Part shown: piece after piece, positions 2,141-8,515 of the stretch
Layout of the letters: each line of letters opens with the position of its first letter
How positions within the stretch are numbered: the first letter of the stretch is position 1
Assembly (NCBI GenBank): GCA_012839765.1
Contig: DUMW01000034.1
Span: 1 to 32,829 of the forward strand
Origin: Bacillota bacterium
Lineage (GTDB): Bacteria; Bacillota; Limnochordia; DUMW01
Direction of reading: 5' to 3'
DNA: 32,829 bases
Notes under the pieces: generated by a model
The model's database searches: none
What the model was told of the DNA's origin: nothing
What the model saw: the letters and a program-made list of their open reading frames with translations, nothing else
Program-made: the position numbers and the translations under genes

Positions 2141-3202
2141 TTGGGCAGAAGGCGGACCGCAGGTTATTTGTTGATTCAACCGCAACAGTGCCTTGCAAAT
2201 CAAATGACGAAGTATTCCTGTAGTGCCTGTCGGGAGGTATGTCCTACCGGGGCCATCGATCTGAGTCACGGGTTCCAGATTGACCAGCAGAAATGTACCG
2301 GATGTGGTGCCTGCGTCAATGTGTGCCCCGTGGAAGCCGTCCGCTTGGCGGATGTTTCTTACCTGCACTGGTTTTCGGCGGCCTTGAAGCGGGCCCAGGG
2401 GCAGAAGGAACTGCGGATCGTCTGTGAACGGGCCGAGGCCGGTTCTGGGGACTTAGTAGTGCCCTGCCTGGGCTGGATTAACGAATGTCTTCTGGTGGGT
2501 CTGGGAGCCCTAAGTCCTGTGCGGGTGGTGGAATTGGTGATTGCTCCCTGTGCCGCCTGTGCCGAGAAGAAAAACTTACGAACCGCCAAAAGGCGCATCC
2601 GCTGCGCCCGGCAGTTTCTGAAGAGTGCACGCAAGTCCCTGCGGATCACCTTGTCTGACGCGACGGAGATCCCCATGCTTCCCCGGGTCCGTCGGCGGTT
2701 TAGGAAGCTGAAACGTCGGCTAAAGGGAAGACTCCGGGTTTTAAGTACGGCCAGTAACCCCCAGTGGCGTCTGGAGAAACGGGAGATCTTGGCCCAGGCT
2801 CTAGGGCAGCTGAAACCGAGAAGACCCTTATCCCTTTCCTGGTATGATTACGGCAATATCAAACTGCGGACCGAGCTTTGTACCGGCTGTGGTTATTGTG
2901 AAAAAGTGTGTCCCACCGGGGCTTTGAAGTTGGAGTCCGGGGAGCAGGAGGCTGTCTTGACCTTCGATGTTTATCGGTGCATAAAATGCGGCCTGTGCGC
3001 CAGCTGGTGCCCCGAGGAGGCTTTGCGGGTGCAAAGGGGTAATACGGGCCATTTCCAACAGCAACAACCGCGGGTCTTGACCCGTTTCCGTACCGGTGCA
3101 TGTAGTTATTGCGGCCGAGAGGTCACGGTTCCCGTGGGAGCCGAGATGATTTGTCCTACCTGTGCCCGAAACCGCGATCTGGCTGAGGGTTACTTGATCT
3201 GA
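2141..3202 (+). CDS. Multi-cluster [4Fe-4S] protein with MvhD-like middle domain and zinc ribbon
   Basis: This is a cytoplasmic electron-transfer protein of 353 residues with five cysteine modules. Residues 17, 27, 30 and 34 (C-x9-C-x2-C-x3-CP) and 52, 55, 58 and 62 form an N-terminal pair of [4Fe-4S] sites. Cysteines 95, 109, 116, 137 and 140 lie in a stretch (VPCLGWINECLL, VIAPCAACAEKK) resembling the MvhD/hydrogenase-delta fold. A very basic linker follows (about 183-205). Residues 247-257 and 280-290 form a second two-cluster ferredoxin unit, and C321/C324/C338/C341 look like a zinc ribbon. The TTG start is set by AAGGAGG at 2127-2133. It lies between the rex region and the hydrogenase operon, so a role as an electron carrier or adaptor for the hydrogenase is plausible, but that is inference. 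I do not know a named family with this full architecture. Confidence 0.85.
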   Translation: MGRRRTAGYLLIQPQQCLANQMTKYSCSACREVCPTGAIDLSHGFQIDQQKCTGCGACVNVCPVEAVRLADVSYLHWFSAALKRAQGQKELRIVCERAEAGSGDLVVPCLGWINECLLVGLGALSPVRVVELVIAPCAACAEKKNLRTAKRRIRCARQFLKSARKSLRITLSDATEIPMLPRVRRRFRKLKRRLKGRLRVLSTASNPQWRLEKREILAQALGQLKPRRPLSLSWYDYGNIKLRTELCTGCGYCEKVCPTGALKLESGEQEAVLTFDVYRCIKCGLCASWCPEEALRVQRGNTGHFQQQQPRVLTRFRTGACSYCGREVTVPVGAEMICPTCARNRDLAEGYLI

Positions 3203-3485: not shown

Positions 3486-3514
3486 TTGACGCCCAACATG
3501 CCTTGTAGTATACT
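3486..3514 (+). promoter_or_regulatory. Promoter of the hydrogenase operon
   Basis: TTGACG at 3486-3491 and TATACT at 3509-3514 are separated by exactly 17 bases, a near-consensus housekeeping-sigma promoter. Transcription would start near 3521, giving a leader of about 160 nt before the first hydrogenase gene. Confidence 0.75.
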
Positions 3515-3555
3515 CGAGGTTGACGTGGGGGAAACTATATTTTTATGGACCTGCT

Positions 3556-3573
3556 TTGTGAAAGTGTTCACAA
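3556..3573. promoter_or_regulatory. Rex operator (perfect palindrome)
   Basis: TTGTGAAAGTGTTCACAA is a perfect inverted repeat (TTGTGAA-N4-TTCACAA) matching the known Rex consensus TTGTGAAnnnnTTCACAA. It lies about 35-52 bases downstream of the inferred transcription start, where bound Rex would act as a roadblock. An overlapping outer pair, CTTTGTG (3554-3560) with CACAAAG (3575-3581), adds a third half-site. rex is encoded in the same window. Confidence 0.9.
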
Positions 3574-3601
3574 GCACAAAGGTTACATAGGAGCTATCTA
3601 T

Positions 3602-3631: not shown

Positions 3632-3684
3632 CTTGAAACCCAAAAAATCCTCTGTATGTGGAGAAGAGAAGGGGAGGAGTCTTG

Positions 3685-4182
3685 GTGAGCATTACTCAGT
3701 GTCAGTGCGGGAAACCCGTCACCGATACGAGGATGACGGAAATCCTTAGCAAGTATGCCAGCAAAGAGCCGGGCAACTTGATTGCGATCCTGCAGGATAT
3801 CCAGGATAAGTACGGATACCTGCCCCGGGAAGCCTTGGTGGCGGCTGCTGTGCATACGGGCCTGTCTACGGCCGAAGTCTATGGTGTCGCTACTTTCTAC
3901 AACCAGTTCCGGTTCAAACCTTTAGGAAAGTACACCATCAGTGTCTGCTGCGGTACCGCGTGCCACGTGCGGGGTTCGGCGGAGATTCTGCAGACCTTGG
4001 AGTCGGAACTCGAGATCCGTCCAGGGGAGACCACCGACGATGGATTGTTTACCCTGGAGACAGTGGCTTGTTTAGGGGCTTGTAGTATGGCGCCTGTGGT
4101 GATGGTGAACGGAGAGTTCCACGGCAAACTCACGCCAAAATCTGTACTGAAGATGATCAATCTGTACAGGAAAAAGGGGTAG
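3685..4182 (+). CDS. hydC: NAD-reducing/bifurcating [FeFe]-hydrogenase, NuoE-like subunit (HydC)
   Basis: This is the [2Fe-2S] thioredoxin-fold subunit that helps relay electrons between NADH and the hydrogenase core. The 165 residues carry the helical N-terminus typical of NuoE (DIQDKYGYLPREALVAAA, STAEVYGVATFYNQFRF) and the cluster ligands in SVCCGTACHVRGS and ETVACLGACSMAPVVMVNG. Candidate starts are GTG 3658, TTG 3682 and GTG 3685; GGAGG at 3673-3677 gives a 7-nt spacer to GTG 3685, which I chose. Four bases separate it from the next gene, and the order NuoE-NuoF-HydA is the standard order for trimeric HydABC enzymes. Control by Rex is expected from the operator upstream. Confidence 0.95.
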   Translation: MSITQCQCGKPVTDTRMTEILSKYASKEPGNLIAILQDIQDKYGYLPREALVAAAVHTGLSTAEVYGVATFYNQFRFKPLGKYTISVCCGTACHVRGSAEILQTLESELEIRPGETTDDGLFTLETVACLGACSMAPVVMVNGEFHGKLTPKSVLKMINLYRKKG

Positions 4183-4186
4183 AAAG

Positions 4187-6190
4187 ATGCGTACATTAAT
4201 GTCTAAATGCTGTGACCGCTGTACTCATTCCCAGGAGAATCCCTGTCGGGATTATATTACCTGTCGGTTGGAAGGACCCCTCTGCCATGATGATGCCGCC
4301 TGTCGAGCAAAACGGCAGGAGATCCGGGCGGTCCTGGACGGACTAAAGCTGTCCCGTCCGGTGGTGAGTGTGGGGATGGGGACCTGCGGCTTGGCCTCCG
4401 GCGCCGATAGGGTCTGGACCAAGCTGCATGAGCTGGTGGAAGCCGCAGGCCTTGATGTGGAGTTTAAGCAGGTGGGGTGCATTGGGCTTTGCTTCCGGGA
4501 AGTACTTGTAGATGTACAGAAGCCTAATCGACCCCGGGTATCCTTCGGCCCGGTGACCGAGGACAAGGTGCCCCTCCTGATTGAATACCTGCAAAATGAT
4601 GTGCTACCCATGGAGATGGCCATTGGTCGGTTCCCCTATGGGGGAGAGATCGAAGGGGAGATCCCTGAACAGAAAGTCCCCTTGATTTATGATCTGCCCG
4701 TCTTTGCCAAGCAGAAGCGGGTGGCTTTGGCCAACTGTGGTTTGATCAATCCCGATTCCTTGTCCGAATACGTCCATCGGGGTGGTTTCAGTGCCCTGTC
4801 TAAGGTCCTGAAGGAGATGAAGCCCCAAGAGGTGATCGCGACCGTTACTGAGGCGGGCTTGCGGGGCCGTGGTGGCGGAGGATTTCCCACGGGACGGAAA
4901 TGGGGATTTGTCGCGGCAGAGTCCGCAGATAAGAAATACCTGGTGTGTAATGCCGACGAAGGAGACCCCGGTGCTTTTATGGACCGCAGTCTTTTGGAAG
5001 GGGATCCCTACCGGGTCTTGGAGGGTATGCTCATTGCCGCCTATGCCATGGGCGCCACCGAGGGGTATATCTACGTCCGGGCGGAGTATCCCCTGGCTAT
5101 TAAGAAACTAAAACAGGCCATAAAGAACATGGCCGAGCTGACCCTCATCGGGGATAATATCCTTGGCAGTGGCTTCAATTTCCATTTGAAGATCAAGACC
5201 GGGGCGGGAGCCTTTGTCTGCGGTGAAGAGACGGCCCTCCTTGCCTCCATCGAGGGTAAACGGGGCATGCCTAGACCGCGTCCGCCCTATCCGGCTAAGG
5301 AAGGTCTCTGGGGCAAACCCACCTGCGTGAATAACGTGGAGACCTTCGCCAATGTGTCCACCATCATCCAGAAAGGGGCCCAGTGGTTCGCCGCCATCGG
5401 TACGGAGACGAGCAAGGGGACCAAGGTCTTTGCTTTGACCGGCAAGGTGAACAACACAGGGCTCATTGAGGTGCCTATGGGAACCACCATCCGCGAGATC
5501 GTGTTTGATATCGGTGGTGGGATTGCCAATAACGGTGAATTCAAGGCGGTGCAGATCGGGGGGCCCTCCGGTGGGTGTCTACCCAAGGAACTGTTGGATA
5601 CCCCGGTGGACTACGAGTCGTTGCTCAAGGCTGGGGCCATGATGGGTTCCGGTGGTCTGGTGGTGGTGGATCAGCAGACCTGCATGGTGGATTTTGCCCG
5701 GTTCTTCATTAGCTTCACCTGTAAGGAGTCTTGTGGTAAGTGTATCCCCTGCCGGGAAGGGACAGCTCGCATCCTAGAGACCATGGATCGAATTGTCTCG
5801 GCCCGGGCCGATGAGACCGGCGATGATACCTTGGTGCGGTTCCAAAGTGTGGTGGAGCTGGAGAAACTGGCGGAGACCATCAAGGATACTGCGGCCTGCG
5901 GTCTTGGTCAGACGGCTCCCAATCCTGTTTTGTCCACCCTGCGGTATTTCCGCGACGAATACGATGCCCATGTCTTTGAACGGAGATGTCCTGCTGGCCA
6001 GTGCCGCAGTTTGCTTACCTACCGGATTGTGCCCGAAGTCTGTCGGGGATGCGGTCTTTGCGTGCGACGGTGCCCCCAAGAGGCGATTATCGGGGAGAAG
6101 GGACATGCCCACATGATCGTAACCGACAAGTGTATCCGCTGTGGGGCCTGCATGCAGTTTTGTCCCTTTGGGGCAATCGTGGCCAGCTAG
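4187..6190 (+). CDS. hydB: NAD-reducing/bifurcating [FeFe]-hydrogenase, NuoF-like subunit (HydB)
   Basis: This is the flavin subunit that exchanges electrons with NAD(H). It has 667 residues. A thioredoxin-like segment (about 58-130, C67, C98 and C102 visible) is followed by a NuoF core with the FMN/NADH loop GRGGGGFPTGRKW (about 226), NADEGDPGAFMDR, GAGAFVCGEETAL (about 340) and the [4Fe-4S] motif SCGKCIPCREGT (about 514). Two C-terminal ferredoxin motifs close the protein, CRGCGLCVRRCP (about 618) and CIRCGACMQFCP (about 648). Unusual is a cysteine-dense N-terminus (C8, C9, C12, C20, C26, C33, C39). The thioredoxin-like part shows fewer cysteines than I would expect for a full [2Fe-2S] site. 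An in-frame ATG at 4199 would shorten the protein by four residues. Confidence 0.95.
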   Translation: MRTLMSKCCDRCTHSQENPCRDYITCRLEGPLCHDDAACRAKRQEIRAVLDGLKLSRPVVSVGMGTCGLASGADRVWTKLHELVEAAGLDVEFKQVGCIGLCFREVLVDVQKPNRPRVSFGPVTEDKVPLLIEYLQNDVLPMEMAIGRFPYGGEIEGEIPEQKVPLIYDLPVFAKQKRVALANCGLINPDSLSEYVHRGGFSALSKVLKEMKPQEVIATVTEAGLRGRGGGGFPTGRKWGFVAAESADKKYLVCNADEGDPGAFMDRSLLEGDPYRVLEGMLIAAYAMGATEGYIYVRAEYPLAIKKLKQAIKNMAELTLIGDNILGSGFNFHLKIKTGAGAFVCGEETALLASIEGKRGMPRPRPPYPAKEGLWGKPTCVNNVETFANVSTIIQKGAQWFAAIGTETSKGTKVFALTGKVNNTGLIEVPMGTTIREIVFDIGGGIANNGEFKAVQIGGPSGGCLPKELLDTPVDYESLLKAGAMMGSGGLVVVDQQTCMVDFARFFISFTCKESCGKCIPCREGTARILETMDRIVSARADETGDDTLVRFQSVVELEKLAETIKDTAACGLGQTAPNPVLSTLRYFRDEYDAHVFERRCPAGQCRSLLTYRIVPEVCRGCGLCVRRCPQEAIIGEKGHAHMIVTDKCIRCGACMQFCPFGAIVAS

Positions 6191-6215
6191 GCGGCTAGGA
6201 GGGGAGAGGTGGAAG

Positions 6216-7946
6216 ATGGATAAGATGGTTAAACTGCGTATTAACGGCCAAGAAGTGGAGGTGCCGGAGGGCACCACCATTTTGGAGGCAGCTAGAACCC
6301 TAGGGATCGACATCCCGACCCTTTGTCATCTGGAGGAACTGAAACCCTCCGGTAGCTGCCGGATTTGCTGTGTGGAAGTGAAGGGCATGCGTGGTCTGGT
6401 GCCTTCCTGTGCCTATCCGGTGGCGGAGGGCATGGAGGTCTCTACCCATGCTACCCGGGTGCAACAGGCCCGGCGGCATATTATTGAACTGTTGTTGGCC
6501 AATCACCCCGATGATTGTCTGTATTGTCCCAAGAACGGTGCTTGTCAGCTGCAGGAGTTGGCAGGCATGTATGGGATTATGGAGCGAAAGTTCATCGGCC
6601 GGAAACGGCACTATCCCATGGACAGTACGAGTCCCAGTATCGAACGGGATCCGGACAAGTGTATCCTCTGCGGGCGCTGTGTGCGGGTTTGTAAAGAGAT
6701 CCAGACCGTTGGGGCCATTGAGTTTGTAGGCCGGGGCTTTGACACCATCGTTTTACCCGCCTTTGCCGAGGACTTGCACAACACGTCCTGCGTGAACTGT
6801 GGCCAGTGTACCCTGGTTTGTCCCACCGGTGCCTTGCGGGAGCGGCGTTCCATTGACCAGGTGGTTGGGGCTTTGCGGAACCTGGCGAAACACGTGGTAG
6901 TCCAGGTGGCTCCGGCGGTGCGGGTAGCCCTGGGTGAAGAATTTGGCCTGCCCTACGGGACCAATGTCACCGGTCAGATGGTCACGGCCCTGCGGCAGCT
7001 GGGCTTTGATGCGGTCTTCGATACCCAATTCAGTGCTGACCTCACCATCATGGAAGAGGGGACCGAGCTGATTCAAAGGCTGAGCTCCGGGGAGAACTTG
7101 CCGTTGCTCACCTCATGCAGTCCCGGTTGGATCAAGTATATAGAGCATTTCTATCCTGATTACTTGCCCAATCTGTCGACTTGCAAATCACCGCAACAGA
7201 TGCTCGGGGCGGTGATCAAGACCTACTATGCCAAACAGAAGCTGATCAATCCGGAGGACATTTATGTTGTGTCGGTGATGCCTTGTACCGCCAAGAAGTT
7301 CGAGGCTACCCGGCCCGAGATGGAAGGGGCCGCTGGGCGGGACGTGGATGCGGTACTCACCACCCGGGAGCTGGCCTTGATGATCAAACAGGCAGGCATC
7401 AGCTTTACCGAACTGCCCCCTGGGGAATTTGACGATCCCTTGGGTGCCTCCACTGGTGCCGGGGCGCTTTTTGGCACCACCGGTGGTGTGGCCGAGGCGG
7501 CCCTCAGGACTGTGTATTACCTCGTGGAAGGAAAGCTACCGGAACAGATTGAGTTCACACCGGTGCGGGGTCTGGAGAATATTAAGGAAGTGGAACTGGT
7601 GCTGGGCGGCAAACAGATCCGCTGTGCCGTGGCCCATGGTCTAGGTGCGGCCAGGTACCTGATGGAGGAAGCTTTGCCCAAGAAGGAGTACCACTTCGTG
7701 GAGATCATGGCTTGTCCCGGCGGCTGTATTGCTGGCGGCGGACAGCCGGTGTCCTTCGGCCGGGGTATGGAGGCCAAGAAGTTGCGCCAAGAGGCGGTTT
7801 ACGCCTTGGATCGGAAGGCCAAGCTACGGTTCTCCCATGAGAACCCCGCGGTGCAGGCCTTGTATGAGAAATTCCTGGGCGAGCCTGGCAGTGAGAAGGC
7901 CCATGAACTGCTGCATACCCACTACGTGCGGCGGGGCATTTGTTAG
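6216..7946 (+). CDS. hydA: [FeFe]-hydrogenase catalytic subunit HydA
   Basis: This makes or consumes H2 at the H-cluster. The 576 residues contain an N-terminal [2Fe-2S] site (C37, C48, C51, C65), the His-Cys3 cluster (H97, C101, C104, C110) and two [4Fe-4S] sites (C149-C159 and C192-C202). The three H-cluster signatures are TSCSPGWIKYIE (C301), MPCTAKKFEATRPE (C357) and EIMACPGGCIAGGGQP (C500, C504). All H-cluster cysteines are present, so the enzyme should be active. The start at ATG 6216 follows GGAGGGGAGAGG; an upstream open frame overlapping hydB is not needed. With hydC and hydB it matches the trimeric enzymes that couple NADH and reduced ferredoxin to H2 formation. Bifurcation itself is inferred from subunit make-up. 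No maturase genes (hydE, hydF, hydG) are in this window. Confidence 0.97.
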   Translation: MDKMVKLRINGQEVEVPEGTTILEAARTLGIDIPTLCHLEELKPSGSCRICCVEVKGMRGLVPSCAYPVAEGMEVSTHATRVQQARRHIIELLLANHPDDCLYCPKNGACQLQELAGMYGIMERKFIGRKRHYPMDSTSPSIERDPDKCILCGRCVRVCKEIQTVGAIEFVGRGFDTIVLPAFAEDLHNTSCVNCGQCTLVCPTGALRERRSIDQVVGALRNLAKHVVVQVAPAVRVALGEEFGLPYGTNVTGQMVTALRQLGFDAVFDTQFSADLTIMEEGTELIQRLSSGENLPLLTSCSPGWIKYIEHFYPDYLPNLSTCKSPQQMLGAVIKTYYAKQKLINPEDIYVVSVMPCTAKKFEATRPEMEGAAGRDVDAVLTTRELALMIKQAGISFTELPPGEFDDPLGASTGAGALFGTTGGVAEAALRTVYYLVEGKLPEQIEFTPVRGLENIKEVELVLGGKQIRCAVAHGLGAARYLMEEALPKKEYHFVEIMACPGGCIAGGGQPVSFGRGMEAKKLRQEAVYALDRKAKLRFSHENPAVQALYEKFLGEPGSEKAHELLHTHYVRRGIC

Positions 7947-8125: not shown

Positions 8126-8515
8126 ATGGCTCAACGGATTCTTGTGGTAGACGACGATCGGGAATTTCTCGAGGCCAGTGCCGGTATCCTGGAAGCGGCT
8201 GGCTATGAAGTGGTGAAAGCTTACTCCGGGGAAGAGGCGCGGAAAATCGCGGCGGAACAATCGTTCGACTTGGTGATCCTGGATGTGGTGATGGAATATG
8301 CCGACGCGGGCTTTGTGTTGTGCCATGAGCTGAAGAGTGGCAAGTACGCGAATGTGCCGATCATGATTCTGACCAACCTTGGCCGGAAGAAGGGGATCCA
8401 CTTCAATTTAAACGATGAGCAGGAAAAGAAGTGGATTAAGGCCGATGCCTACGTGGAAAAGCCGGTGAACGCCGAAGAATTGCTCCGCTGGGTAAATTCC
8501 CTGCTGAAAAACTGA
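8126..8515 (+). CDS. Stand-alone response regulator receiver domain
   Basis: A 129-residue CheY-like receiver with no output domain. The acidic pocket is in ILVVDDD (residues 5-11), the phosphoacceptor Asp in DLVILDVVME (about 51-60), the switch Thr in IMILTNLG and the conserved Lys in YVEKPV. Between the Thr and Lys strands there is a longer-than-usual loop (GRKKGIHFNLNDEQEKKW). No histidine kinase is adjacent. It follows hydA after an imperfect terminator and runs the same way, so it may be tied to hydrogenase control, which is inference from position. The start ATG follows AGGGTGAAAG. Confidence 0.9.
   Translation: MAQRILVVDDDREFLEASAGILEAAGYEVVKAYSGEEARKIAAEQSFDLVILDVVMEYADAGFVLCHELKSGKYANVPIMILTNLGRKKGIHFNLNDEQEKKWIKADAYVEKPVNAEELLRWVNSLLKN

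Follow-up and report, generated by a model that had tools for sequence, protein, structure and literature searches.

The window, the whole 32,829-nt stretch of DNA that was analysed, comes from a genome of the class Limnochordia (Bacillota) and carries a rex gene and, downstream of it, the genes of an [FeFe] hydrogenase. The rex gene (487-1122, + strand) encodes RexA, an NAD(H)-binding redox-sensing repressor and the likely binder of the operator described below. The protein contained an N-terminal winged helix (Pfam PF06971, Put_DNA-bind_N) and a C-terminal Rossmann domain (PF02629, CoA_binding), both above cut-offs, and scored 245.3 bits against NCBIfam PRK05472.2-4, where the cut-off is 126. 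The best PDB match was the Rex structure 2vt2 (E 3e-39), and the RexA clade had a support of 100/99 in the tree. These results confirmed the first-pass annotation, which had placed a Rex gene about 2.4 kb upstream of the site. Rex has been linked to hydrogen-production operons in Thermotoga (PMC8836258), and compared with Thermotoga Rex the protein in the window keeps the DNA-reading Arg48/Lys49 (as VRK) and the Gly58, Gly61 and Tyr64 positions that contact DNA in solved complexes, whereas Gln46, Ser52 and Arg60 are replaced by Leu, Ala and Gln, respectively. Ser52 and Arg60 are variable across the Rex family (PMC8836258). The NAD switch, for which Tyr100 and Asp191 (T. maritima numbering) served as reference residues, is also kept, with the GxGxxG motif as GVGSLG, a Tyr six residues past the last Gly, and TDF at the last helix.

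The hydrogenase genes lie on the + strand as well. The gene hydC (3685-4182) encodes a NuoE-like [2Fe-2S] subunit (Pfam 2Fe-2S_thioredx, 1e-52), and the GTG at 3685, which stands behind GGGGAGG, is a likelier start codon than the mechanical start at 3658. It is followed by hydB (4187-6190), encoding a NuoF-like NADH/FMN subunit whose C-terminal part carries 4Fe-4S clusters (Pfam Complex1_51K, NADH_4Fe-4S and Fer4), and by hydA (6216-7946), which encodes the catalytic [FeFe] hydrogenase subunit of the NADH-dependent group (NCBIfam NF040763, 872.5 bits against a cut-off of 765; TIGR02512, 532.7 against 405.95). HydC, HydB with its extra clusters, and HydA with the H-cluster are encoded together at 3685-7946 as a trimeric HydABC set. 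Between rex and hydC are genes for a UbiE/MenG-type methyltransferase (1176-1928) and a multi-cluster 4Fe-4S protein (2141-3202); in the latter, two dicluster regions enclose a middle part, and a CxxC pair lies at the C-terminus. A stand-alone response-regulator receiver domain is encoded at 8126-8515, immediately 3′ of hydA.

In the 455-bp gap 5′ of hydC we found the sequence TTGTGAAAGTGTTCACAA at 3556-3573 (no strand assigned), which reads as TTGTGAA-AGTG-TTCACAA. Both 7-bp arms agree without mismatches with the published Rex consensus TTGTGAANNNNTTCACAA, as quoted in PMC6391272. The site had been described earlier as an 18-bp palindrome identical to the Rex consensus, and this was correct for the arms as matches to the consensus but not for the centre; the site is built 7+4+7 with an inner AGTG that is not self-complementary, so that 14 of the 18 positions are symmetric. 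The arms and their spacing are also identical to those of the Staphylococcus aureus Rex sites, TTGTGAAW4TTCACAA (PMC2883068); the spacer there is W4 rather than AGTG, and the targets are anaerobically induced genes. The site at 3556-3573 is real and probably a functional Rex operator. An outer inverted repeat, CTTTGTG...CACAAAG, exists as letters, and its right half (CACAAAG, 3575-3581, no strand assigned) had been proposed as a half-site permitting binding in a second register. This proposal was not supported. The sequence lies 6 bp beyond the proper half-site, a spacing unfit for a Rex dimer, and was absent from every other operator examined; Rex sites with altered spacing showed no enrichment in the spacing controls upstream of hydC in relatives.

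A scan of the whole genome for the Rex motif had been suggested in the first-pass annotation. When the 2.56-Mb genome was searched with the wider pattern TTGTKAANNNNTTMACAA, 3556-3573 was the only exact match, and the reversed control gave none. Within the window, three matches were found at up to three mismatches (1.00 expected), and 3556-3573 alone had fewer than three. With TTGTGAAN4TTCACAA at up to two mismatches the genome contained seven sites compared to three for the control, and two of the seven were located at hydrogenase promoters. A one-mismatch site at C104:1831 had no convincing gene start nearby and was treated as chance. The relaxed pattern TTGTKAN6TMACAA was not enriched in the genome (13 sites and 13 in the control). 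No site with up to three mismatches was found in the examined sequence upstream of either rex gene of the genome, and rex autoregulation was rejected on this ground. The distribution of sites suggests that the Rex regulon of this genome is small and hydrogen-centred, comprising structural and maturation genes.

For comparison we used about 60 (61) Limnochordia genomes, relatives that share the class of the host, with none nearer. Upstream regions of hydC were collected from 28 loci in these relatives, and TTGTKAANNNNTTMACAA was present with up to two mismatches in 14 of them, compared to 0.34 expected and a maximum of 3 in 200 dinucleotide-shuffled sets; with up to one mismatch it was present in 5 of the 28 (0.03 expected). 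Patterns with a spacer of 3, a spacer of 5 or swapped halves gave no match in the same regions, and the reversed pattern gave two. Relatives of the same family are not independent, and the hydC counts are a measure of enrichment and not of the number of events. An exact Rex match occurred in 10 of the 61 genomes compared to 1 for the control. The shuffles, the reversed controls and the footprints show that these sites form a genuine class of operator conserved among the relatives. Five f6 genomes have the exact match 5′ of hydCBA; one of them is G005, in which RexA was the only Rex found. Three f4 genomes (G003, G037 and G046; loci L149, L150 and L151), likewise with RexA as the only Rex found, have it 5′ of a por operon. 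The por operon, named by reading its translation, encodes a 2-oxoacid (probably pyruvate):ferredoxin oxidoreductase. In G014 an exact match to a TTGTTAA form was located within a reading frame and was put down as probably chance. The RexA-bearing genomes of f4, f2 and parts of f12 and f9 were without a site before their hydC, and Rex control of the hyd genes would therefore not be universal across RexA-bearing families. Upstream of hydC in relatives of f5 and f13 (L038, L039, L041, L068 and L075), Rex-like sites were often seen in pairs 53-54 bp apart, or about five helical turns.

A second candidate target in the genome is the hydrogenase maturation operon TM1266-hydE-hydG on another contig, all three genes of which scored above curated cut-offs. 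A copy of the site with two mismatches, TTGTGAAAAGTATCACGA, is located upstream of it (C116:19136-19153; L137:3137-3154) and extends over the start expected from a promoter with the -10 element TATAAA, which was read from the sequence outside the automatic scan. Among eight relatives found with TM1266-hydE-hydG, five had an upstream site at one or two mismatches, and three of these five were f9 genomes with RexA types only (G013, G028 and G034). The recurrence of the site at the maturase operon and before hydC in relatives supported the earlier reading of a Rex-type operator ahead of hydCBA. The same consensus TTGTGAANNNNTTCACAA applies in Caldicellulosiruptor bescii, where gel shifts have shown Rex on sites before the [FeFe] hydrogenase and hydG genes (PMC6391272), so that operons for the structural hydrogenase and for the maturases are targets in both organisms, here as a prediction. 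In contrast, the rex gene of C. bescii has a Rex site of its own, and the regulon there is broader and includes a NiFe hydrogenase, PFOR and others (PMC6391272), whereas the genome of the window has few other good sites and none that we found upstream of rex.

The candidate promoter of hydCBA, P1 (3486-3514, + strand), consists of TTGACG (3486-3491), a 17-nt spacer and TATACT (3509-3514) and matches the consensus at 10 of 12 positions; three promoters of this kind were found in the region compared to 0.5 expected from shuffles. When the start was placed 7 nt past the -10 element, the operator fell at about +36 to +53, in agreement with the position reported earlier for this promoter. This is farther downstream than in the relatives, where the site begins between about -8 and +16, namely at about +11 to +16 from the predicted starts before hydC in f6 and f10, and at about -8 to -4 at the hydEG promoters where the promoter was clear. 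An alternative -10 element, TATATT (3536-3541, + strand), with a weak -35 element, TCGAGG, and a 16-nt spacer, matches at 8 of 12 positions, and if it were the true one the operator would begin at about +9, which is closer to the hydC values of the relatives. All the predicted operator positions would suit a repressor that blocks the polymerase, and an overlap with the promoter would be equally suitable. The first-pass annotation held that the reading as an operator would be refuted if transcription began 3′ of the palindrome, but this was too strict. In relatives, initiation is predicted at the site, inside it or shortly before it, and Rex control would still be compatible with transcription that begins inside the site or beyond it. 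On the opposite strand, a promoter-like sequence, TTCACA-17-TATAGT (3534-3562, minus strand), has its -35 element inside the Rex operator and may be chance. No riboswitch or other known RNA in Rfam was matched in the window, including the long hydC leader.

The genome encodes two Rex proteins, RexA in the window and RexC on contig C27, which are 39% identical. In a phylogeny of 78 Rex proteins from the class, the clades RexA, RexB and RexC each had a bootstrap value of 100, and the genome has A and C; the helix of RexB, QIRSDLSYFGSFGQQGYGY, presumably resembles that of clostridial Rex. The gene for RexC immediately follows a second set of hydrogenase genes, which encode a PAS-domain sensory-type [FeFe] hydrogenase, a SpoIIE-type phosphatase, HydC, HydB and HydA; this second operon, RexC included, was recorded at C27:33058-40991 (L077), with L131:5705-5779. 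The proximity of rex to hydCBA in the window, which had been put forward as evidence, is weakened by this arrangement and by the named rex loci, since neither hydC, hydB nor hydA was found beside rex in any of 63 loci (5-kb flanks, some shorter); in several of them the gene next after rex was ubiE. The linkage in the window is thus local and weak evidence and does not alone name the binder, because the genome holds a second Rex.

It could be argued that the operator is real but bound mainly by RexC, with RexA serving something else. RexC is present and adjoins hydrogenase genes, and Rex-like sites stand at the promoter of the RexC-linked operon itself (TTGACA-17-TATTGT), with the variant TCGGGAAAAGTTTCACGA at the start and TCGAGAAATTATGCACGA 57 bp upstream, so that the two operator types are similar; the pair is located at C27:32704 and 32761. 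We first favoured this reading, as genomes with two Rex proteins had hydC sites more often, but withdrew it when the second Rex proved to be mostly RexB and genomes with RexA only were seen to have exact sites. At the RexC-linked operon the right arm of the sites is mostly a different one (GCACGA, TCACGA and the like), and the wing of RexC is altered, with an SGGRPGLGY-like sequence instead of FGKQGVGY. Exact sites are found before hydCBA in G005 and before por in the f4 genomes, and only RexA was found in these genomes, which have an estimated completeness of 95-100%; on these genomes we base the putative assignment of the motif TTGTGAAN4TTCACAA to RexA. The comparative evidence favours the RexA of the window as the binder, and RexC as the main binder appears unlikely. 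In several f6 relatives the arrangement of the second operon is kept, with site pairs 56 bp apart at the same place. It is possible, and we propose it tentatively, that RexA acts on hydCBA and the shared hydE-hydG through TTGTGAAN4TTCACAA and that RexC, with its remodelled wing, acts on the adjacent operon for the sensory hydrogenase, the phosphatase and HydCBA through variant sites arranged in pairs with a distance of about 56 bp; the two proteins would then have separate operator specificities, and control of H2 metabolism would be split between them in Limnochordia.

A regulator of another family was also considered, because 3556-3573 contains an exact match to the 16-mer CRP consensus TGTGA-N6-TCACA and the genome has three regulators with a cNMP-binding domain. 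This 16-mer occurs three times in the genome, but never on the contigs that carry the three regulators, and two of the three have ETLSR-type recognition helices, which are typical of Fnr and not of CRP. The sites of relatives include TTGTTA halves, so TGTGA is not strictly kept, and they include the outer letters of TTGTGAA/TTCACAA that are read by Rex. A CRP/FNR-family site is for these reasons very improbable. That 3556-3573 might be a chance palindrome without function is the least credible reading. An 18-mer of which 14 letters are fixed may arise randomly in some genome, but from the base composition (about 55% G+C) about 0.02 exact matches are expected in this one; the match also stands before a classical Rex target, and sites of this type are strongly enriched in relatives and at hydEG.

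Taken jointly, we consider it highly probable that 3556-3573 is a Rex operator, that it is most likely bound by RexA, and that it serves NADH-relieved repression of hydCBA. At a low NADH/NAD+ ratio, a Rex dimer, most likely of RexA (487-1122), would occupy the site at or just downstream of the hydCBA start and block RNA polymerase. With rising NADH, Rex would bind NADH and leave the operator. The [FeFe] hydrogenase, a trimer that would depend on NADH and ferredoxin, would then be made, and reductant would be disposed of as H2. The weaker copy over the TM1266-hydE-hydG promoter would allow the maturation genes to be induced together with the structural genes.

What is new here is mainly the very probable switch between Rex and the [FeFe] hydrogenase in the little-studied class Limnochordia and the second, parallel set of Rex and hydrogenase genes in the same genome. 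Rex control of [FeFe] hydrogenase is known in thermophilic and in fermentative anaerobes, and the predicted switch would add to these the Limnochordia, a deep class of the Bacillota with few cultured members. With two Rex proteins, each encoded beside its own HydABC operon, the genome would provide a simple system for how Rex paralogues divide their targets.
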